A DNA stretch of 64,000 bases from Flavobacterium potami. Lineage in GTDB: Bacteria > Bacteroidota > Bacteroidia > Flavobacteriales > Flavobacteriaceae. The notes beneath the pieces were generated by a model, which did no database searches, was not told the origin of the DNA, and saw only the letters and a list, made by a program, of their open reading frames with translations. Below, piece by piece: positions 34,005 through 64,000 of the stretch. How positions within the stretch are numbered: position 1 is the stretch's first letter; the number at the start of each line of letters is the position of its first letter. A program made the position numbers and the translations under genes. The stretch covers positions 1 through 64,000 of the forward strand of contig NZ_JAINUY010000001.1 in assembly GCF_020026915.1 (NCBI RefSeq), in the 5' to 3' direction.

Positions 34005-34100
34005 GCTGCTAAGTGGCTAAGATTCTGAGATGCTAAGTTTTTTAGCCATCAAAAGAAAAACTTAGAAACTTAGCATCTTAGAATCTCAGAAACTTAAAAA
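34005..34100. repeat. CTTAGAATCTCAG-family intergenic repeat
   Basis: Left words GCTAAGTGGCTAAGATTCTG and GAGATGCTAAGTTTTTTAGC (34010-34047) face right words AAAAACTTAGAAACTTAGCA and TCTTAGAATCTCAG (34056-34089). Together they form a long imperfect hairpin between the permease and the sigma-54 activator. A shorter relative is at 59220-59248. Confidence 0.75.
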
Positions 34101-49352: not shown

Positions 49353-49386
49353 GGGGCAAAGGTACAGAGTTACAAAGTGACAAAGG
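49353..49386. repeat. CAAAGG-family repeat, copy 1
   Basis: The words GGGGCAAAGGTACAGAG and TTACAAAGTGACAAAGG lie upstream of the sigma-factor gene. The same vocabulary is found at 57618, 57871, 62351 and 62442. Confidence 0.65.
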
Positions 49387-53918: not shown

Positions 53919-55301
53919 GTGAATTTAAAGCAGTACACCAAAGAGTTTTCGTATAATTTAAGACTGGCATATCCCGTAATTTTGGGAATGGTCGGACATA
54001 CTTTAATCGGTATTGTCGACAATATAATGGTTGGTAAAATCGGAAGTACAGAACTGGCGGCGGTTTCTCTTGGTAATAGCATGATTTTTATTGCAATGTC
54101 TCTCGGAATTGGTTTTTCTACAGCCATTACGCCAATTGTAGCCGAAGGTGATGCAGAAAAAAACGATACCAAAATTCGTTCGGCTTTTCATCACGGACTC
54201 TTTTTATGTACAATTTTGGGCTTGGTCCTTTTTACTGTAATTATGTTTGCTAAACCAATTATGGAATTATTGCAACAACCCGCAGATGTTATTGTATTGG
54301 CAAAACCGTATTTGGGTTGGGTTGCTTTTTCTTTGATTCCGTTGGTAATGTATCAAGGATATAAACAATTTGCAGACGGAATGTCGTTAACCAAATATTC
54401 GATGTATGCTATGGTTATGGCAAACGTTCTACATGTTGGTATTAACTACGTTTTAATTTACGGAATCTGGATTTTTCCAAAAATGGGAATTATAGGCGCC
54501 GCTTTAGGAACCGTAATTTCGAGAATATTTTTGGTCATGTTCATGCATATTATGCTTTCCAGAAGAGAAGATTTAAAGCGCTTCTTTAAAGGTTTTAGTT
54601 TTAATGAAATCCAAAAAGCAACTATAAAAAAGATTATCAGCATTGGGTTTCCTTCTGCAATGCAAATGCTTTTTGAAGTGGTTTTGTTTACCGCTTCGAT
54701 CTGGCTTTGCGGAAACATCGGAAAAACAAGTCAAGCGGCCAATCAGATTGCTTTGAGTTTGGCATCTATGACATTTATGTTTGCAATGGGACTTAGCGTG
54801 ACATCAATGGTGCGTGTAAGTAACCAAAGAGGTCTAATGGATTATAAAAAGCTGGTCGTTGTAGCGCGTTCTATTTTCTTGCTTGCCATAATTTTAGAAA
54901 CCATTTTTGCCATTTTCTTTATCATTTTCCACGATTATCTCCCGTACATTTTCTTGAATATGGAAAATACAGGACAGATTTTAGATAATGAAGAAGTAAT
55001 TGGCATTGCTTCAAAACTACTTTTAATTGCAGCGATTTTTCAAATTTCTGACGGAATTCAAGTTGTGGTTTTGGGCGCTTTACGCGGATTACAAGATGTG
55101 AAAATACCGATGTATATTACCTTTGTTGCCTATTGGGTTATCGGTTTCCCGATTTCTTATTATTTGGGAGAACATACCGAACTAAAAGCACAAGGAGTTT
55201 GGATCGGACTTTTGGCAGGTTTGACTGCGGCTGCAATTTGCTTGTATGTTCGTTTTCACTATTTAACAAAGAGATTAATAAAGAATTCAGACACAGAATA
55301 A
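53919..55301 (+). CDS. MATE family multidrug efflux transporter
   Basis: A cation-coupled exporter with twelve predicted membrane helices in two bundles of six. The 460-residue protein starts at GTG (VNLKQYTKEFSYNLRLAYPV), which I choose because a -7 element at 53892 lies upstream of it and the family begins here. Family segments are LIGIVDNIMVGKIG, ELAAVSLGNS and the second-half repeat TSQAANQIALSLASMTFM. The C-terminal FQISDGIQVVVLGALRGLQD is also typical. NorM-type drug or cation-coupled substrate export is likely. Confidence 0.92.
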   Translation: MNLKQYTKEFSYNLRLAYPVILGMVGHTLIGIVDNIMVGKIGSTELAAVSLGNSMIFIAMSLGIGFSTAITPIVAEGDAEKNDTKIRSAFHHGLFLCTILGLVLFTVIMFAKPIMELLQQPADVIVLAKPYLGWVAFSLIPLVMYQGYKQFADGMSLTKYSMYAMVMANVLHVGINYVLIYGIWIFPKMGIIGAALGTVISRIFLVMFMHIMLSRREDLKRFFKGFSFNEIQKATIKKIISIGFPSAMQMLFEVVLFTASIWLCGNIGKTSQAANQIALSLASMTFMFAMGLSVTSMVRVSNQRGLMDYKKLVVVARSIFLLAIILETIFAIFFIIFHDYLPYIFLNMENTGQILDNEEVIGIASKLLLIAAIFQISDGIQVVVLGALRGLQDVKIPMYITFVAYWVIGFPISYYLGEHTELKAQGVWIGLLAGLTAAAICLYVRFHYLTKRLIKNSDTE

Positions 55302-55320
55302 TTAAATTTGAAAAATATAT

Positions 55321-55375
55321 TTTGCAGACTACGAAATAAAAATCCTTTTTAATCTGTAAAATCAGTGGCAAAAAA
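55321..55375. repeat. AATCTGTA/GCAGACTA word spacer
   Basis: TTTGCAGACTACGAAATAAA and CCTTTTTAATCTGTAAAATC lie between the MATE gene and the small acidic gene. They resemble the text at 22945-23015, but no strong hairpin forms. Confidence 0.4.
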
Positions 55376-55409
55376 AATAAATAATCAATTAATAAAAAAA
55401 TAGACACAA

Positions 55410-55637
55410 ATGGAATTACCTAAATTTTTACTTGGAGACAATACTGATTTTCCAGACGATATTTTTATCATTCACCTTGATTACCCAAGATTTATCATCA
55501 ATTTGAAAGATGATGAGGTAGAATTTTTAGAAGAAGCAGAAGATCTTGACGAAGCAGAATTAAACGCCGAAATGGAAGGTTTGATTGAAAAAGCAAATGA
55601 TTTTTATGATCGTGAAATAAATCGTTACGAAGAGTAA
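55410..55637 (+). CDS. Small acidic protein of unknown function
   Basis: A 75-residue protein with a very acidic middle and end (DDEVEFLEEAEDLDEAELNA, then EMEGLIEKANDFYDREINRY). The N-terminal part, MELPKFLLGDNTDFPDDIFI followed by IHLDYPRFIINL, is hydrophobic and ordered. It does not match a family I can name. It is not a shadow of another gene and has normal codon use. It ends 45 bases before the LTA-synthase-like gene and may be cotranscribed. Confidence 0.65.
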   Translation: MELPKFLLGDNTDFPDDIFIIHLDYPRFIINLKDDEVEFLEEAEDLDEAELNAEMEGLIEKANDFYDREINRYEE

Positions 55638-55682
55638 TTGTATTTATTGATTAGCACTTTTTTACGTTCTTAATATTTTATA

Positions 55683-57617
55683 ATGAAGAATTTATCTTTT
55701 TTAAAACCTATATTTAATTTTATAGCAATCGGATTATTGATTACTACTTTAAGCCGAATCTTTTTGTTTTTTATTTTTAAAGAAAGAGTAGTACAGACAC
55801 CCGATTTCTGGTATATTTTTCCAATCGGCCTTCGAATGGATTTGATATTATTGTGTTATTTGTCTTTTCTGCCGGCGCTATTGATTACTTTTTTACCTAA
55901 TAAATGGATAAAATTCACCAATACATTTTTAGTCATCTACAGTTTTCTATTTCTGTTTTTAATTCTTTTTGTAGAATTAGCTTCTCCAGATTTTGTAAAA
56001 CAATATGATACGCGTCCGAATAAGATTTTCTTAGATTATCTTATTTATCCAAAAGAAGTAGTCGGAATGCTTTTAAAAAGTTATCTCACTTCTATTATAG
56101 TAACATTCCTTATTTTGGGAGTTGTACTTTATTTTGCTTTTAAAAAAGGAAAAAAACTATTCTATACTTCAAATACAGATTATAAATTCAAATTAATGGT
56201 ATTTCCATTATTGGCATTTTTACTGTTTTTTGGAGCACGTTCAAGTCTGACTTCAAAGCGACCAATTAATGCCAGTAATGCTGTTTTTTCTACAGATCAA
56301 TTGACGAATACTCTAGGTTTAAATTCATTTTACACAGTTGCATTTGCGGCATATTCCATCAAAAACGAAGGAAATACAAAAATGTATGGTAAAATGGATG
56401 AGGCTGAGGCGATTGCTCGTGTCAAAAAATATATGATCGCTGGTCCAAATGATTTTACTGATGCTGAAATTCCGTTTTTACATGTACAGCAACCCGATTC
56501 TGTTATGAAAAAGCCATACAATTTGGTTATTTTTCTACAAGAAAGTTTAGGTGCAGAATACGTTGGAATTTTAGGTGGAAAACCATTAACGCCAGAATTT
56601 GATAAATTATCGAAAGAAGGAACTTTATTTACCAATCTATATTGCACAGGAACAAGAAGTGTCCGCGGAATTGAAGCGGTTGTAACAGGATTTTTGCCTT
56701 CGCCATCAGAAAGTGTAGTAAAACTTGGAAACTCACAACAAGGCTTTTTTACTTTAGCAGAAGCGTTAAAACAAAAAGGTTACGAAACAAGTTTCATTTA
56801 TGGGGGAATGGCCAATTTTGACAATATGGCTTCGTTTTTCAACGGAAATGGTTTCAGCGATATTGTCGATCAAGAAGATTTTGATTCTGATGGAAAAAAA
56901 TATGCCTTCAAAGGAACTTGGGGTTATTCTGATGAGGATTTGGTTACTAAAGCCAATCAGTATTTTAAATCAAAAGGAGACAAACCATTTTTCTCTTTGA
57001 TGTTCTCAACTTCAAATCATGAACCTTTTGAATATCCAGCAGGAAGAATTAAATCTTACGATAAAAAGCCTAATACAGTAAATAATGCAATGAAATATGC
57101 AGATTTCTCTATTGGGAAATTCTTCGAAATGGCTAAAAAAGAAGCGTATTTTAAAAACACTATTTTTATTGTAATTGCAGATCATAACACAAGAACATAC
57201 GGTAAGAATTTAGTTCCGATAAATAAATTCCATATTCCGGCATTTATTATGGGGCCTGGAGTTGCAAAAGGAGCCGTTTACGATCGATTGGCAAGTCAGA
57301 TTGATATTCCGCCAACATTGTTAGGATATTTAGGAATGCCATTTGAAACGCCAATGGTTGGTAGAAACTTGACAAAATTAGATCCAAAAGTACAAGGAAG
57401 ATCTATTATGCAGTTTAATGATATCAATGCTTTTAGAGTAGAAAACCAAGTGGTTATTATGCAGCCAAATTTGAAACCACTTCAATTCGAAATTAAAAAC
57501 GATACCACTTTAATTCCTGTAAAACTAAACGAAAACTTAGCAAAAGATGCTTTGGCTCATGTTATTACAGCGGGGAATTTGTATAAAGAAAGTAAATATA
57601 AGTTGAGAAAAAAATAG
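55683..57617 (+). CDS. LTA-synthase-like membrane sulfatase (phosphoglycerol transferase family)
   Basis: A 644-residue protein with five N-terminal membrane helices (within residues 1-195) and a periplasmic alkaline-phosphatase-fold domain (about 275-565). Metal and nucleophile motifs are LVIFLQESLGAEYVG, the Thr/Arg segment YCTGTRSVRGIEAVVTGFLP, SNHEPFEYP, and IVIADHNTRTYG. In Gram-positives the family makes lipoteichoic acid; in Bacteroidetes the substrate may be a phosphoglycerol or phosphoethanolamine decoration of glycans or lipids. That is inferred. Confidence 0.88.
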   Translation: MKNLSFLKPIFNFIAIGLLITTLSRIFLFFIFKERVVQTPDFWYIFPIGLRMDLILLCYLSFLPALLITFLPNKWIKFTNTFLVIYSFLFLFLILFVELASPDFVKQYDTRPNKIFLDYLIYPKEVVGMLLKSYLTSIIVTFLILGVVLYFAFKKGKKLFYTSNTDYKFKLMVFPLLAFLLFFGARSSLTSKRPINASNAVFSTDQLTNTLGLNSFYTVAFAAYSIKNEGNTKMYGKMDEAEAIARVKKYMIAGPNDFTDAEIPFLHVQQPDSVMKKPYNLVIFLQESLGAEYVGILGGKPLTPEFDKLSKEGTLFTNLYCTGTRSVRGIEAVVTGFLPSPSESVVKLGNSQQGFFTLAEALKQKGYETSFIYGGMANFDNMASFFNGNGFSDIVDQEDFDSDGKKYAFKGTWGYSDEDLVTKANQYFKSKGDKPFFSLMFSTSNHEPFEYPAGRIKSYDKKPNTVNNAMKYADFSIGKFFEMAKKEAYFKNTIFIVIADHNTRTYGKNLVPINKFHIPAFIMGPGVAKGAVYDRLASQIDIPPTLLGYLGMPFETPMVGRNLTKLDPKVQGRSIMQFNDINAFRVENQVVIMQPNLKPLQFEIKNDTTLIPVKLNENLAKDALAHVITAGNLYKESKYKLRKK

Positions 57618-57675
57618 GTCAAAGGGGCAAAGGCACAAAGCGAAAAAGGTTCAAAGTTTTTTACTTTGGACCTTT
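57618..57675. repeat. CAAAGG-family repeat, copy 2
   Basis: The words GTCAAAGGGGCAAAGGCACA and AAAGGTTCAAAG, then ACTTTGGACCTTTT in reverse, start at the base after the sulfatase stop codon. They form an imperfect hairpin. Confidence 0.75.
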
Positions 57676-57710
57676 TCATTTTTTAGTGAAATATTGAAAA
57701 CGCAAAGATT

Positions 57711-57810
57711 TGTCATTTCGACGAAGGAGAAATCACACTAGAAACTCGTCAAAGATTGGTGACTTACTTTATGGAATTTCGCGTGTGATTTCTCCTTCGT
57801 CGAAATGACA
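57711..57810. repeat. Long hairpin element, TGTCATT family, copy 2
   Basis: A perfect 28-bp inverted repeat (57711-57738 with 57783-57810) around a 44-base core. The arms begin TGTCATTTCGACGAAGG and end AATCACAC. The core has CAAAGATTGG and GGAATT, as in the copy at 42621. The arm middles differ between the two copies, yet each copy stays perfectly self-complementary. Confidence 0.9.
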
Positions 57811-57865
57811 AGATTGTGTTTATGTTTAAGGAAAAATAGAAAGGTGAGCAAAGCGATATCTTTTT

Positions 57866-58987
57866 TTACTCTGAACCTTTGTCCCTTTGAGCCTTTGCAC
57901 CTTTATCAAAATACAATTTTAATAACTGAGAAGCAGCTGCAAACGATGAAATTTCATTGTTTTGCACTGCTTTTTTGCTTTTTTCTAATAGTGAAACAAT
58001 TTCAGGTTGATTGAAGAAATTTTGTTTCAACTCTTCATTGATGGTTTCCAGCATCCAGAAATGATTTTGTTCGTTTCTTTTTTCTTGGAAAAAGCCGCTT
58101 TCTTTTGTCAGTTCGAAATAATTAGAAATGGTATTCCAAACTTCTGGAATTCCGTCTTTTGTTAGCGAACTGCAAGTGGTAACTTTTGGTTGCCAATTTG
58201 ATTTTTTGGAAGGAAACAAATGCAGCGCTCTATTAAATTCTACTTTCGCTTGATTTGCTTTTTTGATATTATCTCCGTCTGCTTTATTGATTACGATAGC
58301 ATCTGCCATTTCCATAATGCCACGTTTGATGCCTTGAAGTTCATCGCCTGCGCCAGAAATTTTTAAAAGCAAAAAGAAATCGACCATGCTATGAACAGCC
58401 GTTTCACTTTGACCAACACCAACGGTTTCAATAATAATAGTATCAAAACCAGCAGCTTCGCAAAGAATAATTGTTTCTCGAGTTTTGCGAGCGACACCGC
58501 CCAAAGTTTCGCCAGAAGCGCTTGGTCGAATAAAAGCATTTTCGTCTTTAACCAATTCCTCCATTCGAGTTTTATCGCCGAGAATACTTCCATGAGAAAG
58601 CGAACTGCTCGGGTCAACTGCCAGAACGGCTACTTTTTTTCCAAGTTCTGTCAGATGTTTTCCAAAAGCTTCAATAAAAGTACTTTTTCCAACACCAGGA
58701 ACACCCGTAATTCCAATACGAATTGATTTATTAGCATGAGTTAAACAACCTTGAACCACTTCACTAGCTTTTTCGAAATGATCTGGATTAGTACTTTCAA
58801 TTAAAGTAATAGCTCGACTTAAAGAAGTTCTGTTGCCTTCTAAAATACCATTAATTAATTCCTGAGAAGTGGGTTGCTGTCTGCGTTTGTTTTTAATTTG
58901 ATTGATAGCCGAAATGTTGGTGATTTCGGGTGGTGAAATTCCAGCTTTTTCAGATGTACTGCCGGCTTGTTGATTAGAATTTGACAA
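57866..58987 (-). CDS. meaB: MeaB/ArgK-type GTPase chaperone of methylmalonyl-CoA mutase
   Basis: Protects and reloads methylmalonyl-CoA mutase with adenosylcobalamin. The 373-residue protein has Walker A GVPGVGKSTFIEAF, Mg-binding region VDPSSSLSHGSILGDKTRM, switch ETVGVGQSE, and base motif VINKADGDN. The mutase genes lie about 45 kb away at 10878-14944. The last 11 residues (GAKAQRDKGSE) are encoded by an intergenic CAAAGG-family repeat and are not part of the family fold; the Kef-type protein at 62439 has the same kind of tail. Confidence 0.92.
   Translation of the reverse strand: MSNSNQQAGSTSEKAGISPPEITNISAINQIKNKRRQQPTSQELINGILEGNRTSLSRAITLIESTNPDHFEKASEVVQGCLTHANKSIRIGITGVPGVGKSTFIEAFGKHLTELGKKVAVLAVDPSSSLSHGSILGDKTRMEELVKDENAFIRPSASGETLGGVARKTRETIILCEAAGFDTIIIETVGVGQSETAVHSMVDFFLLLKISGAGDELQGIKRGIMEMADAIVINKADGDNIKKANQAKVEFNRALHLFPSKKSNWQPKVTTCSSLTKDGIPEVWNTISNYFELTKESGFFQEKRNEQNHFWMLETINEELKQNFFNQPEIVSLLEKSKKAVQNNEISSFAAASQLLKLYFDKGAKAQRDKGSE
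57871..57905. repeat. CAAAGG-family repeat, copy 3 (inside the meaB 3' end)
   Basis: CTGAACCTTTGTCCCTTTGA followed by GCCTTTGCACCTTTA lies within the coding sequence just before the meaB stop. On the minus strand it reads AAAGGTGCAAAGGCTCAAAG, then GGACAAAGG. Confidence 0.85.
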
Positions 58988-59044
58988 AACGCACTTTTTA
59001 GAAACGTAAAAGTACAGAAAACAAAAACAGTTTCAAAAAGTTAG

Positions 59045-59217
59045 TTCGCCATGAATTACACGAATTATCACTAATTTGTTATTATCAAAATGAGCTAAAA
59101 AAAAATAGCCACGAATTCACGAATTTTCTTTTGAAAAACTATATCTGATATTATCATTCGAATTAATTCGAAAAATAATCTCAAAGATTTTAAAAAGAAA
59201 ATTCGTGAATTCGTGGC
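59045..59217. repeat. GAATTCACGAATT-family inverted repeat
   Basis: A perfect 25-bp inverted repeat (59108-59132 with 59193-59217) starts GCCACGAATTCACGAATTTT. Its loop is 60 bases. A third degraded word, GCCATGAATTACACGAATTA, lies at 59048-59067. The right arm is followed by the CTTAGAATCT words (59220-59248) that run up to the stop of the next gene. Confidence 0.88.
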
Positions 59218-59245
59218 AAAAAAAACTTAGAATCTTAGCAACTTT

Positions 59246-59887
59246 TTAGTAGCCTGCTGTAAACCTAACTTGGTGATGTTTTGGATTTTCTGCTTCATCA
59301 GCGATAACAACAGCTAAATCTTCTACAGATAAAATACTTCTTTGCTCTTCGTTGAAAACTGGATTTTCTAATCCTAAACGATATTTTCCAGTTCTTCCAG
59401 TTTTAGTTCCAGCATGCATTTCGAAAGCAGGACTAAAGAATGCCCAGTCTAGATCTTTTTCTTCTTTGATGATATTTAGATAATGTCTTGCAGCGTTTGC
59501 ACCAGGGAAAATTTCTTTTGGAAAATCTTGCGTATCAACCGCTTGTAAATCTGGAGCAACGTATAAACTTCCTGCACCACCGATCGTAATAAAACGTCTA
59601 ACGCCCGATTTTTTAACCGCTTCTTGAATCGCTTTAGAACCTGCTAAAAAGTCATCGTAAATATTTGGGTTTGTCCATCCTGGATTATAAGCATTGATAA
59701 CGGCATCGTGTCCTTTTAAGATTTCCGACAAAGCATCAACATTAAAAATATCTGCAGCAACCCAAGTTGCATTTGCTGTGTCTTTTGGAGTTCTTGCAAT
59801 AGCAGTGATTTCGTGTTTTCTGTCTGCTAATTCGTTTAAAATTGCTGAGCCAACAAATCCTGTAGCTCCGATAAGTGCGATTTTCAT
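59246..59887 (-). CDS. NAD(P)H-binding (NmrA/atypical SDR) protein
   Basis: A 213-residue Rossmann-fold protein. The glycine motif is IALIGATGFVGSAIL at the N-terminus; VAADIFNVD and VINAYNPGWTNP follow; FITIGGAGSLYV and DWAFFSPAFEM are typical of NAD(P)-binding NmrA-like proteins. A catalytic YxxxK is absent. It may be an NADPH sensor or quinone-type reductase. It follows an Rrf2 gene by 57 bases on the same strand and is probably controlled by it. Confidence 0.85.
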   Translation of the reverse strand: MKIALIGATGFVGSAILNELADRKHEITAIARTPKDTANATWVAADIFNVDALSEILKGHDAVINAYNPGWTNPNIYDDFLAGSKAIQEAVKKSGVRRFITIGGAGSLYVAPDLQAVDTQDFPKEIFPGANAARHYLNIIKEEKDLDWAFFSPAFEMHAGTKTGRTGKYRLGLENPVFNEEQRSILSVEDLAVVIADEAENPKHHQVRFTAGY

Positions 59888-59944
59888 AATATATAAATTT
59901 ATTTAGTAATAAAAAATGTTACAGTTTAGGTTAAAAAAATAGTT

Positions 59945-60352
59945 TTAAAATTGATTCGAAAAATCTTCCAATGAAATTCCTTCCAGTTGTGCACCGACTT
60001 TTTGGTTCATTTCGCTATACAAATTCTCCAAATGCTGATTGATGTTTTTTCCAACAGGACAATCAGGATTCGGCTGATTTTTAGCAAAGCCTAAACCAAT
60101 TGTTTCAAAGGTCATTTCGAATATTTGTTTTAAAGTCAGTTCAGCAGCGTTTACTGCTAATTTGGTACCGCCATTTTTTCCTTCTTTACTTTCTACAATA
60201 TGATGTGCTTTTAAATTGGCAATTTCTTTTCGAACCAAAACAGGATTTAAATTCATACTTCCTGCAATAAACTCCGACGACAAATAATCGTTTGGAAATT
60301 TATGCAGCAGCGTAAGAATGTGAATCGTTATGGCAAATTTACCTGAAATCAT
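59945..60352 (-). CDS. Rrf2 family transcriptional regulator
   Basis: A 135-residue winged-helix regulator. The helix-turn-helix is in SSEFIAGSMNLNPVLVRKEI and the wing in SKEGKNGGTKLAVNAAELTL. Only one Cys (PDCPVG) is in the usual cluster region, so it is the YwnA-like type without an iron-sulfur cluster. Such proteins often repress a neighbouring NAD(P)-binding gene, here at 59246. The heptamer TGTTACA appears three times around the gene and may be its operator. Confidence 0.88.
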   Translation of the reverse strand: MISGKFAITIHILTLLHKFPNDYLSSEFIAGSMNLNPVLVRKEIANLKAHHIVESKEGKNGGTKLAVNAAELTLKQIFEMTFETIGLGFAKNQPNPDCPVGKNINQHLENLYSEMNQKVGAQLEGISLEDFSNQF

Positions 60353-60365
60353 ACTGTAATAAAAT

Positions 60366-60379
60366 ATGTTACAAATTTA
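60366..60379 (-). promoter_or_regulatory. Rrf2 promoter element with putative operator
   Basis: On the minus strand 60372-60379 reads TAAATTTG, a full -7 match 20 bases before the Rrf2 start. It overlaps ATGTTACAAATTTA. The same ATGTTACA word is at 59916 (before the NmrA gene) and at 60566. An Rrf2 operator is inferred. Confidence 0.4.
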
Positions 60380-60423
60380 CGTGTTTTTGCAACACAAAAT
60401 ACTAATTTAACTATTTTTTTTGA

Positions 60424-60650
60424 AATGAGTGAGTAGTAATTAGTGAAAAGTGATTGGTAGTTAGTTGTTTGTGATTAGTAAATAGTAAATAGTAAATAGT
60501 AAATAGTGAATAGTGAATAGTGAATAGTGAATAGTGAATAGTAAATCGGGATAAGCTATTTATAGATGTTACATTTTTAACAAAAGCAAAATACAAGTTA
60601 TGGTTACCACAAAAGGCTAATTACTAATCACTTTTCACTAATCACTAAAA
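60424..60650. repeat. AGTAAAT/AGTGAAT tandem heptamers with facing inverted words
   Basis: Ten perfect 7-base units in a row lie at 60477-60546: four AGTAAAT, five AGTGAAT and one AGTAAAT. Before it is TAGTGAAAAGTGATT (60441-60455), and after it at 60626-60640 is the exact reverse complement AATCACTTTTCACTA. The whole 227 bases make an inverted-repeat spacer between the Rrf2 gene and the AEC gene; apart from the repeats and one TGTTACA word I see no other feature. Confidence 0.85.
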
Positions 60651-60683
60651 TATAAATACCTATTTTTGTTATGATCTTACAAT

Positions 60684-61595
60684 ATGAACAACTTTATTCT
60701 AATATTTCTATTTCTTTCACTTGGATTGATTTTACAGCGAGTAAAACAATTTCCGACTCATATTTACAAGACACTAAATAAAATTGTCATTTATTTTTGC
60801 CTTCCAGCAATTACTTTATATCACATTCCGAAAATAAAATGGAGTAATGACTTATTGTTTCCAATAGGAGCGGGTTGGATTACTTATATTTTAGCTTTTG
60901 TCTTTTTTCATTTTTTAGGAAGAAGGAATGGCTGGTCGAATAAAATGATTGGATGTTTGATTTTGACAGCAGGATTAAGCAACAGTTCTTTTCTAGGTTA
61001 TCCAATTATTGAGGCTCTGTTTGGAAAGAAAGGTTTAGAAACTGCTGTTTTGGTAGATCAACCGGGAACTTTTGTTGTGGTTTCTACTTTAGGAGTTTTT
61101 ACAGCAGCATTTTATTCTAAAGGAAGTCCAGATGCTTTGGGAATCTTTAAAAAGATTATTTTCTTTCCGCCTTTTATAATGTTTGTTATTGCTTGTCTAA
61201 TGAATGTTTTTCAAGTCGATTTAAGCGAAAATCTTCAATCTGCATTATTAAAAATTGGAAGTTTGGTAACTCCTCTTGCATTGCTTTCGGTTGGTTTACA
61301 ATTAACTTTCGATAAAAAAAGTCAACACTGGAAATTTTTACGTCTGGGACTTTTCTTTAAATTGCTTTTGGTTCCTTTTGTAATTTTTGTGCTTTACGTT
61401 TTCATTTTCAACCAACATTCTGAAGTAATAAAAATAACCATAATGGAAACCGCAATGGCGCCCATGATTACAGGTGCAATTTTGGCTTCAACATACGGAT
61501 TAAAACCAAAATTGAGCAGTATGATGATTGGTTTCGGAATACCAATTTCTTTTGTAACACTTGCTTTTTGGTACTTCATTCTTACTTTTATTTAG
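60684..61595 (+). CDS. AEC (auxin efflux carrier) family transporter
   Basis: A 303-residue membrane protein with about ten helices in two halves: FILIFLFLSLGLILQRVKQF at the start and ALLKIGSLVTPLALLSVGLQ in the second half. The motif LSNSSFLGYPIIEALFG is the AEC substrate region. Bacterial members export or import carboxylates such as malate; the substrate here is unknown. It lies downstream of the heptamer repeat. Confidence 0.87.
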   Translation: MNNFILIFLFLSLGLILQRVKQFPTHIYKTLNKIVIYFCLPAITLYHIPKIKWSNDLLFPIGAGWITYILAFVFFHFLGRRNGWSNKMIGCLILTAGLSNSSFLGYPIIEALFGKKGLETAVLVDQPGTFVVVSTLGVFTAAFYSKGSPDALGIFKKIIFFPPFIMFVIACLMNVFQVDLSENLQSALLKIGSLVTPLALLSVGLQLTFDKKSQHWKFLRLGLFFKLLLVPFVIFVLYVFIFNQHSEVIKITIMETAMAPMITGAILASTYGLKPKLSSMMIGFGIPISFVTLAFWYFILTFI

Positions 61596-61708
61596 GAGTA
61601 AAATAGTAATTATATCGACAAAGTAGAATTTTAACTTTTTTTTACCTTTTGAATGTTTTCTACATGTATTTTTTAGTTAATTTTAGAGGAACTAAAAAAG
61701 ATAAAATT

Positions 61709-62347
61709 ATGTCAACATTAAGATTAGGCGATATAGCTCCAGATTTCCACGCAGAAACCACGCAGGGACCGATTAATTTTCATGAATGGTTAGGAGATTC
61801 TTGGGGTGTTTTATTTTCGCATCCAGCAGATTTTACTCCTGTTTGTACTACTGAATTAGGAACTGTAGCGAACTATGTTCCAGAATTTCAAAAGAGAAAT
61901 ACCAAGGTTATTGCTTTGAGTGTAGACGGTTTAGACTCACACAAAGAATGGATTAAAGACATCAACGAAACTCAAAATACAGAAGTAAATTTCCCAATTA
62001 TTGCAGATGAGGATAAAAAAGTAGCAAATCTTTATGATATGTTGCATCCAAACGCAAGTGACAAATTTACAGTGCGTTCTGTTTTTGTGATCGGACCAGA
62101 TAAAAAAATCAAATTGACTTTGACATATCCAGCTTCTACAGGAAGAAATTTTGACGAATTACTTCGTGTAATCGACAGTTTACAATTGACTGCAAATTAC
62201 AGTGTTGCAACGCCAGCAAACTGGAAAGATGGAGAAGATGTGGTTATAGCTCCTGCAATTCCAGACAGCGATATTCCAGCAAAATTCCCGAAAGGACATA
62301 CGCCAATTAAACCTTATTTGCGTTTGACGCCGCAGCCGAATAAGTAA
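61709..62347 (+). CDS. 1-Cys peroxiredoxin (Prx6 type)
   Basis: Reduces peroxides at a single reactive cysteine. The 212-residue protein has Cys46 in HPADFTPVCTTEL and no other Cys, so it is a true 1-Cys enzyme. LSVDGLDSHKEW and the long C-terminal Prx6 domain (AIPDSDIPAKFPKG, then PYLRLTPQP) are present. I start it at 61709; the longer frame adds 20 residues that are not part of the fold. A terminator hairpin follows. Confidence 0.93.
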   Translation: MSTLRLGDIAPDFHAETTQGPINFHEWLGDSWGVLFSHPADFTPVCTTELGTVANYVPEFQKRNTKVIALSVDGLDSHKEWIKDINETQNTEVNFPIIADEDKKVANLYDMLHPNASDKFTVRSVFVIGPDKKIKLTLTYPASTGRNFDELLRVIDSLQLTANYSVATPANWKDGEDVVIAPAIPDSDIPAKFPKGHTPIKPYLRLTPQPNK

Positions 62348-62350
62348 TTT

Positions 62351-62389
62351 AAAGGGACAAAGGTTCAAAGGGACAGAGGAACAAAGTTT
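62351..62389. repeat. CAAAGG-family repeat, copy 4
   Basis: AAAGGGACAAAGGTTCAAAG followed by GGACAGAGGAACAAAGTTT lies 4 bases after the peroxiredoxin stop. It can face copy 5 (62442) across the terminator hairpin, giving one long inverted repeat. Confidence 0.8.
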
Positions 62390-62429
62390 AAAGGCTGCTA
62401 TTTTTCCAAATGGAAAAATAGCAGCCTTT
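62390..62429. terminator. Hairpin between peroxiredoxin and the Kef-type gene
   Basis: A perfect 18-bp stem (62390-62407 with 62412-62429) with a 4-nt loop. It is symmetric and may end both genes; the T-run is short. Confidence 0.7.
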
Positions 62430-62438
62430 AATTTTTAA

Positions 62439-64000
62439 CTAGGCCTTTGGACCTTTGTCCCTTTGAATCTTTGCACCTTCAAAAGTGAACAAAGCCGTCA
62501 TTCTTTTTTTATCTCCTACAACCCAGAGAATATCATTTTTTTCTAGAATTAAACTAGATTCAGGATTAAGGATGCGATTTCCATTTCGTTCAATTCCGAC
62601 AACCATTCCGTCTGTTTTGGCTCTGAATTGTCCGATGCTTTTTTGGATGAATTCCTCTTGTGAAACTTCTAGTTGACGCAATACAATATCTGTCTCTTGT
62701 ATTTTTGTTGGAGCTTCAGTCTCATTTTGCGTTAGAAATTTTGTGAATTCAGCAATTTGGGCGTCGGTTCCAATTACACAAATTTCATCTCCAGGAAATA
62801 AACGTTCGTTTTTAGTAGGAATCGGAATAGTGACTTCACCTCGTTTAATGTAGGCAATATTGATTCCTAATTGCTCACGGATTTTAAGTTCCTGTAAAGT
62901 TTGTCCAACCAAATTGGATTCTTTTTTAATTTCAAAGAAAGACATGTGTCCGTCCCAAGGCATTAAATTGGCATATCTTCTATCGATCTTTTTGTTTTCG
63001 CGATCGTTAAGGTTTTTCAAAAAGTGATTTTCAATCTTATGATATTGTTCATTTAATTTTTTAGGGAATATCTGATAAGCTCCAATTGCAATAATAAGCG
63101 CAACAAAAGCAACTAAAGGAGAGAAGAAAATATTCAACAAAAATCCGACGAAGAACAATCCAAGGCTCATTCTAATTAATATTAACATTAATAATGCTCC
63201 ACGATATTTACGCTCTTCCCATAAAATTTCAACTTCATCAACTTTAACACGACGAAGCGATAGTGCCCATAAAAAAGGTGCAATAATGACTAAAGTTAGC
63301 AAAGCAGCTAAAGTATTTCCAAATCTTGTATCGGCGACTAAAGGCGCAACAAATTTAGATGACAATAAAATTATAGCAGTAATGATAATAGTATGAAGAA
63401 TAATCTGTGTAACCGATGAACGAAGTACAATTTGCCAAGTACTTACCGATTTGATAGCTTGCGCATTGACACTATATCGATTAATATTTTTAACCCATCT
63501 TTTTGGCATTTTCGATTCCAGAAACAAAGCAAAACGCTCTGAATATTTAATTAAAAAAGGGGTTGTAAAAGTGGTAATCGCTGAGACTGCTACAATTATC
63601 GGATATAAAAAATCACTCGTAACTTTCAAAGTCATTCCCAGAGTTGCAATAATAAAAGAGAACTCTCCAATTTGCGCTAAGCTCATTCCTGTTTGAACCG
63701 ATTGTTTTAAAGGCTGTCCAGAAATTAATGCACCAATCGAAGAACTAAATGCTTTTCCGAAAATTGTGATAAGTGTAATTAACGCAACAGGAAGTGCATA
63801 AGTCAATAAAGTGTTCGGATTAATTAACATTCCTACAGATACGAAGAAAACGGCACCAAATAAATCTTTTACGGGCTGAATTAAGTGTTCGATTTTTTCT
63901 GCCATAGTAGTTTCAGCAATAATAGATCCCATGATAAAAGCTCCCAATGCAGGAGAGAAACCAACATTTGCCGCAAAAACTACCATCATCAAACATAATG
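62439..64000 (-). CDS. Kef/CPA2-type cation:proton antiporter with TrkA_C domain, 5' end outside the window
   Basis: A partial protein (about 519 residues visible, frame open to the window edge). The membrane part has NVGFSPALGAFIMGSIIAET, FGAVFFVSVGMLINP and SLAQIGEFSFIIATLG, the CPA2 family signature. A second membrane block of four helices lies near residues 185-320. A cytosolic TrkA_C domain (about 360-430, LVGQTLQELKIREQLGINIA, FPGDEICVIGT) follows, and a second similar one ends the chain. It should exchange K+ or Na+ for H+. Its last residues, EGAKIQRDKGPKA, come from a CAAAGG-family repeat. Confidence 0.88.
   Translation of the reverse strand, partial: LCLMMVVFAANVGFSPALGAFIMGSIIAETTMAEKIEHLIQPVKDLFGAVFFVSVGMLINPNTLLTYALPVALITLITIFGKAFSSSIGALISGQPLKQSVQTGMSLAQIGEFSFIIATLGMTLKVTSDFLYPIIVAVSAITTFTTPFLIKYSERFALFLESKMPKRWVKNINRYSVNAQAIKSVSTWQIVLRSSVTQIILHTIIITAIILLSSKFVAPLVADTRFGNTLAALLTLVIIAPFLWALSLRRVKVDEVEILWEERKYRGALLMLILIRMSLGLFFVGFLLNIFFSPLVAFVALIIAIGAYQIFPKKLNEQYHKIENHFLKNLNDRENKKIDRRYANLMPWDGHMSFFEIKKESNLVGQTLQELKIREQLGINIAYIKRGEVTIPIPTKNERLFPGDEICVIGTDAQIAEFTKFLTQNETEAPTKIQETDIVLRQLEVSQEEFIQKSIGQFRAKTDGMVVGIERNGNRILNPESSLILEKNDILWVVGDKKRMTALFTFEGAKIQRDKGPKA
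62442..62480. repeat. CAAAGG-family repeat, copy 5 (inside the Kef-type 3' end)
   Basis: GGCCTTTGGACCTTTGTCCC then TTTGAATCTTTGCACCTT lies within the coding sequence, ending at the stop codon. It gives the protein the tail GAKIQRDKGPKA, similar to the MeaB tail GAKAQRDKGSE. Confidence 0.85.

Follow-up and report, generated by a model that had tools for sequence, protein, structure and literature searches.

Two gene ends inside repeat arrays

The window analysed here comprises the first 64,000 nucleotides of contig NZ_JAINUY010000001.1 of Flavobacterium potami, in which two unrelated genes, encoding a MeaB-like GTPase and a Kef-type antiporter, end inside arrays of an 8-bp repeat. The meaB gene (57866-58987, minus strand; Pfam MeaB, E 9e-107), whose nearest named matches are from F. 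sharifuzzamanii, F. tistrianum and others (92-94%), is closed by a TAA codon at 57866-57868. Its product ends in ...LYFDKGAKAQRDKGSE, and the tail of 13 codons (DKGAKAQRDKGSE; 57869-57907, minus strand) is encoded by the array between 57905 and the stop codon. The kef gene is represented by its 3' part (62439-64000, minus strand; Pfam Na_H_Exchanger and TrkA_C) with a TAG stop at 62439-62441, the complete Kef/TrkA_C frame having 757 amino acids from the first methionine and a start near contig position 64712, past the window end. This protein ends in ...TALFTFEGAKIQRDKGPKA, with an array-encoded tail that is also of 13 codons (EGAKIQRDKGPKA; 62442-62480, minus strand).

The unit that encodes both tails is CAAAGNNN, hereafter the CAAAG kind, and a sister kind, CTAAGNNN (CTAAG), sits at the same sites in other species. 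Per 8-bp unit only C(A/T)AAG is conserved (C(A/T)AAGNNN), the remaining three bases being variable. As the initial annotation of this DNA had proposed, both tails are repeat-encoded, with arrays of these units running to the MeaB and Kef stops. The additional copies that it had noticed across each spacer proved to be inverted partner arms of CAAAG units on the plus strand, one at 57620-57656, directly behind the stop of a sulfatase gene that is convergent with meaB, and one at 62350-62386, behind the stop (62345-62347) of the AhpC/1-Cys peroxiredoxin gene on which kef converges.

The end of meaB was compared at 100 distinct orthologous sites (110 loci minus 10 duplicates). Tails of at least 8 residues were found in 12 of the 33 genes bearing a CAAAG array, in none of the 11 bearing a CTAAG array and in none of the 56 without a detected array. 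After the residues LYF, the CAAAG-bearing proteins carried 5 residues (21 cases), 13 (10), 8 (one) or 14 (one), and all 11 CTAAG-bearing tails had 4 residues, the CTAAG core containing TAA. The genes without a detected array, a few of which (L066, L091) do carry CTAAG units, short and degenerate, at the stop codon, showed 1 to 7 residues at this position, most commonly K-K. As the stop codon lay within the array in 40 of the 44 array-bearing genes, it is in most cases the repeat that provides it. The register of the array relative to the stop was strongly locked at meaB (32/33 CAAAG and 9/11 CTAAG arrays in one register), as expected from an array that supplies the stop. In the whole sample, 15 of 32 CTAAG arrays shared one register and 8 the next, and no lock was seen for CAAAG, 86 arrays being spread over all eight registers. 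Both the tail counts by array type and the position of the stop support the earlier proposal that the repeat invaded gene ends and replaced their stops.

If the tail were instead ancestral and had been lost in relatives, it should also occur in genes that lack the repeat. It is indeed common to the clade of F. potami, but array-free homologues with the same tail were not found at meaB, the DNA of the tail is the repeat itself, and similar tails arise far off on the tree (L057, L094, L105). An ancestral tail was rejected on the meaB comparison and is considered next to impossible.

At kef, array-type tails were present in 3 of 30 loci (G000, G057, G063) and absent from the other 27, close relatives without the tail ending in ...ALLAAK or ...ALLAVK. 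A third, unrelated gene elsewhere in the genome, encoding a GH88-like hydrolase, ends in ...EALIKGQRLKGSK, again with an array-encoded tail. Inspected by eye, 30 GH88-like loci comprised 7 with array-encoded tails, 12 with arrays and no long tail, and 11 without array, ten of these last ending in an RK..L-like sequence and one (L299) in RLKSI. For all three genes, then, homologues free of the repeat end in the conserved core, without the extension. Long tails are rare, with three genes in about 1.27 Mb. A survey of 1010 genes of this genome found them only in meaB and the GH88-like gene, kef at the window edge being among the genes dropped for lying 60 bases or less from the end of a stretch. 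Genes were called with a simple in-house caller, not taken from annotation, and the genome stretches were picked around arrays, apart from the window and a single contiguous stretch of 220 kb.

Repeat period, reading frame and the peptide

Because 8 and 3 are coprime, all three frames of a CAAAGNNN array encode one 8-residue cycle. The frame is regained after every three units, or 24 nt (AAA GGN NCA AAG GNN CAA AGG NNC), and K-G-[SATP]-K-x-Q-R-x is read in every frame, both in pure arrays and in the two window arms. As the arms face inward, a gene entering an arm reads the CAAAG strand, and as the cycle is identical in all frames, similar tails need neither selection nor a shared frame. The initial annotation was thus correct that both tails are read in the same frame, but this is uninformative, since any frame would have given the same cycle; the shared frame was rejected as a sign of design.

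A CAAAG array has a single stop-capable codon per 24 nt, the GNN that may become TNN (AAG followed by TNN as TAA, TAG or TGA), and therefore 31 of the 33 CAAAG-bearing MeaB tails have exactly 5 or 13 residues. In pure CTAAG arms each frame meets a TAA in the course of 24 nt, and such arms therefore add few residues only. Among the arms of at least 4 units in the F. potami genome, 151 of 225 CAAAG arm-frames were fully open, compared with 5 of 126 for CTAAG.

For the tails themselves, the annotation had offered two options, localisation or degradation tags and neutral additions. A functional C-terminal tag spread by selection to several proteins would fit the similar basic, hydrophilic tails of three unrelated genes and the 13-residue MeaB tail found in eight related species. 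In those species, which supply the nearer 8 of the 12 long meaB tails, 4 synonymous and 9 non-synonymous changes were counted over 12 codons of the tail, versus 146 and 55 over the 150 codons before it (Fisher p 0.003), and no difference from neutral opportunity was seen for the tail substitutions (p 0.32). In addition, long and short tails interchanged 9 times on a quick meaB tree with many weak branches (12 long tails among 71 rows), one cycle is forced in all frames, and 32 of the 44 array-bearing meaB genes have tails of only 4-5 residues. A tag is thus not supported and appears highly improbable, and the small sample favours the neutral option; near-neutral substitutions combined with repeated changes of tail length point to a tolerated by-product.

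Hairpin arms, their placement and their two kinds

The pattern CAAAGGNNCAAAGGNNCAAAGG, with up to 3 mismatches, gave 15 overlapping matches in the window, while 100 shuffled versions averaged 0.11. Over the 5.69-Mb genome, the CAAAG pattern with up to 2 mismatches gave 191 overlapping matches versus 0 in a reversed control, and the CTAAG kind 226 versus 5. CAAAG matches were present in 94 of 121 Flavobacterium genomes drawn from a larger group; at least 40 matches were counted in 25 of them, 24 of which are at least 4.4 Mb in size. In other genera of the same family, 8 of 119 genomes had a match with up to 1 mismatch, the maximum being 15 matches. A search of 1.66 Mb from two genomes gave 259 arrays with at least 3 units (159 pure CAAAG, 64 pure CTAAG and 36 mixed) versus 11 in the reversed sequence, and the shuffles and reversed controls together ruled out a chance origin. 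Positions 55000-64000 gave no match to Rfam at gathering scores, and a known RNA family was rejected on this ground.

Of the neighbouring arrays at most 300 bp apart, 84 pairs faced inward, 5 faced outward and 23 lay on the same strand. The arms of inward pairs agreed in kind in 75 of the 84 (58 AA and 17 TT, after the base that tells CAAAG from CTAAG) against 52 expected (p 3e-8). Arms have 3 to 12 units, and the gaps between them range from -5 to 214 bp. In the array-enriched sample, arrays occupied 51 of 164 convergent, 75 of 549 same-direction and 11 of 174 divergent intergenic regions, a 3'-end placement of the terminator type. Among the 1010 genes surveyed, a sense arm lay at 80 3' ends and an antisense arm at 5; in the stretches not chosen for arrays the counts were 7/215 and 0/215. 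The start of an arm is often only tens of bases away from a stop codon, and in a few genes the arm overlaps the coding end.

At both window sites the arm is predicted to fold with its partner, each region forming one long hairpin with the tail codons on one side of its outer stem. The whole kef element gave z scores of -13.8 and -12.7, and the meaB site gave -14.6 with the palindrome enclosed in the loop between its arms. This long palindrome (TGTCATTTCGACGAAGGAGAAATC..., 57711-57810) resembles, in sequence and fold, an insert of the type of miniature inverted-repeat transposable elements (MITE) or repetitive extragenic palindromes (REP), and lies outside the 8-bp family. Nested between the two kef arms there is a terminator-like hairpin of 20 pairs (62388-62431) with a T-rich tail on both strands, and the two inner units of the 57620-57656 arm form the 5' side of another terminator-like hairpin (57644-57676); a GC-containing stem followed immediately by a T-run is seen at both. 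Terminator-like sites in 57000-63000 numbered 7, compared with 4.0 in shuffles. Perfect complementarity of the arms was too weak as proof of a selected hairpin.

The kinds of arm were followed at kef and meaB, sites chosen because the F. potami genome has arrays there. Of 27 kef rows, 20 were two-armed (15 TT, 5 AA, none mixed), 2 one-armed and 5 without arms. Among the 67 meaB rows there were 30 with AA, 10 with TT and 2 with mixed arms, while 3 had a single arm and 22 had none; row L086 counts as AA because its short CTAAG arm next to the stop is outweighed by arms farther away. At least one arm was therefore kept in 22 of the kef and 45 of the meaB rows. The two kinds were not clustered on the meaB tree, with 9 changes over 44 rows against 7 to 11 in 200 shuffles.

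This lack of clustering is one of the points in favour of the main rival explanation, by which the arrays would be a mobile MITE/REP-like family repeatedly inserted behind stops as ready-made copies, already A- or T-type, without switching in situ. The arms are also mostly of one kind (223/259 arrays pure), some loops hold MITE-like palindromes, and insertion is least countered at meaB. However, only 5 of the 8 bases per unit are conserved in the arms, whose length varies, and the element is retained at these orthologous sites yet is rare at 3' ends generally (7/215). At kef, moreover, the A-type element of G049 and the T-type element of G015 have a common orthologous loop: their inner loops match in 39 of 42 columns, and loop matches at 0-1 mismatch lie only at the kef site of either genome, those at 2 mismatches occurring elsewhere at about the control frequency. 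Mixed arrays are also blocky, with 23 A/T boundaries in 19 arrays of at least 4 units, versus 37.8 after shuffling (0/2000 as low). Repeated insertion is accordingly regarded as rather unlikely. These 19 arrays change units in neighbouring blocks, as in slippage, and mixed arrays are possible intermediates of a change of kind. The variable bases of partner arms matched at 0.606, versus 0.513 for swapped partners, the maximum of 500 shuffles being 0.575.

Taken together, the tails are probably a by-product of an element at gene 3' ends that consists of 8-bp units and forms a hairpin. In genes overlapped by a CAAAG arm, the reading frame stays open across the arm until the codon after an AAG reads TAA, TAG or TGA, and in this way the array gives unrelated genes similar tails and a new stop. 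Arms would grow and change by slippage of units, and template switching might at times copy one arm into the other, keeping a single kind and the hairpin; the hairpin may serve transcription termination or 3'-end protection, and the peptide tails would be tolerated, near-neutral additions without a tag function. Slippage with occasional arm-to-arm copying is the simplest account. It is also possible, if somewhat less likely than not, that the hairpin renews itself, both arms switching between CAAAG and CTAAG at a fixed orthologous site by slippage and templated copying while the loop is kept, and that this switch decides the tail of the upstream gene.

Several results weigh against the reading of the tails as by-products of a switching hairpin. 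The window tails are alike at 8 of 9 cycle positions, a likeness reached by 1.9% of 269 in-phase array-peptide pairs (usually 5-6); part of it comes from a meaB change found only in the F. potami genome, the other 7 of the 8 relatives reading QSD or QND (S/N for R). The motif G[SATP]KxQ(R/S/N)xKG is complete in the open part of only 16 of 225 CAAAG arm-frames, most arms being too short, and the case for neutrality is built on 13 substitutions among 8 sequences. Arms reach 5' ends too (antisense at 28 of the 1010 genes, sense at 1), the antisense ones because the element is inverted. The meaB arm without its partner folds no better than shuffles (z -0.95), and the outer array stem in the window has no T-run after it. 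Among the kef loops compared, a hand-chosen 14 of the 20 two-armed rows, all 100 shuffles were exceeded by 14 of 45 pairs of unlike type (A/T) and by 24 of 46 pairs of like type, and half of those 14 A/T pairs involve one A-type species (G049, L145). Finally, given the modest match of the variable bases between partner arms, arm-to-arm copying cannot be frequent or exact.

Further repeats were seen in and around the window. A CTAAG-kind element with inward-facing arms lies at 34009-34081, and a lone CAAAG-kind arm at 49357-49385 on the plus strand. A distinct CAAAGTCGCAGAGTCGCAAAG form recurs among the arrays of this genome (e.g. G000:C26:1122434 and G000:C37:752448). The palindrome at 57711-57810 belongs to a second MITE/REP-like family (TTTCGACGAAGGAGAAATC and TTCGAGCGGAGTCGAGAAC kinds) that also lies in array-hairpin loops of L033, L034, L037 and L040. 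At the orthologous site downstream of meaB in the relatives L041, L049, L051 and L055, an inverted ATATAAGT-type array with a period of about 9 bp replaces C(A/T)AAG, as judged by eye. Inverted stretches of CACGAATTCACGAATT repeats occur at 59040-59220, and between two genes at 60428-60660 there is a 7-bp TAGTGAA/TAGTAAA array and, beyond it, an inverted stretch rich in TAATCACT.

Relation to known repeats and meaning for the family

REP and the bacterial interspersed mosaic elements (BIME) are fixed palindromic sequences that go together with a REP-associated Y1 transposase in the genome carrying them. The arrays have no fixed palindrome, with only C(A/T)AAG of 8 bases conserved and a variable number of units, nor do they have the fixed length of a MITE: their arms are inverted, but arm length and inter-arm gap vary. 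No account of the C(A/T)AAG 8-bp family was found in the open literature searched, among the matches listed, and the literal repeat strings gave no match there.

Repeat-made C-termini that replace a stop are an already known kind. In the enterobacterial RU-1/RU-2/RU-3 family, a repeat at the 3' end of the amidase gene ECA3499 removed the normal stop and encodes the C-terminus, and, as in Flavobacterium, a stop within the repeat ends the extended protein; RU-1, RU-2 and RU-3 are single mobile units of 103-168 bp, whereas the Flavobacterium arrays consist of two inverted arms of degenerate 8-bp units, whose peptide cycle is frame-independent (PMC2759123). Functional Coxiella genes affected by QMITE1 or QMITE2 carry the element at their 3' ends, and EnhC of one strain gained 33 C-terminal residues; QMITE1 and QMITE2 are MITE families, for which the accessible part of the report describes neither period-8 arrays nor a concerted change of arms (PMC5896051). 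Stem-loops at 3' ends are general; in a study of these and of bidirectional terminators, stable stem-loops were found preferentially between convergent genes and in the first 50 bp behind stop codons, and, unlike for the Flavobacterium arrays, the portion of that study at hand describes no 8-bp internal period and no interchangeable pair of kinds (PMC1590033). Template switching between inverted-repeat arms, according to the sections available, homogenises the arms and can create and keep hairpins (PMC8604942, PMC8794818); what differs here is that, from sequence comparison, it is proposed to act jointly with 8-bp tandem slippage at many gene ends. An array hairpin with two interchangeable kinds of unit is therefore filed as a new form of 3'-end hairpin repeat.

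Unrelated proteins can thus acquire similar C-termini from a noncoding repeat at 3' ends, with no need for selection on the peptide itself, which is a warning against calling shared tails tags. The rule behind this is simple: where the period of a repeat is not divisible by 3, the encoded peptide cycle is independent of frame. The family also offers a natural test of the way in which long hairpins originate and their arms stay similar, as dozens of related genomes have the same sites with arms rewritten between kinds. If the self-renewing hairpin holds true, the A or T base of each unit would set whether an arm can be translated in all frames or puts a stop into each of them within 24 nt.

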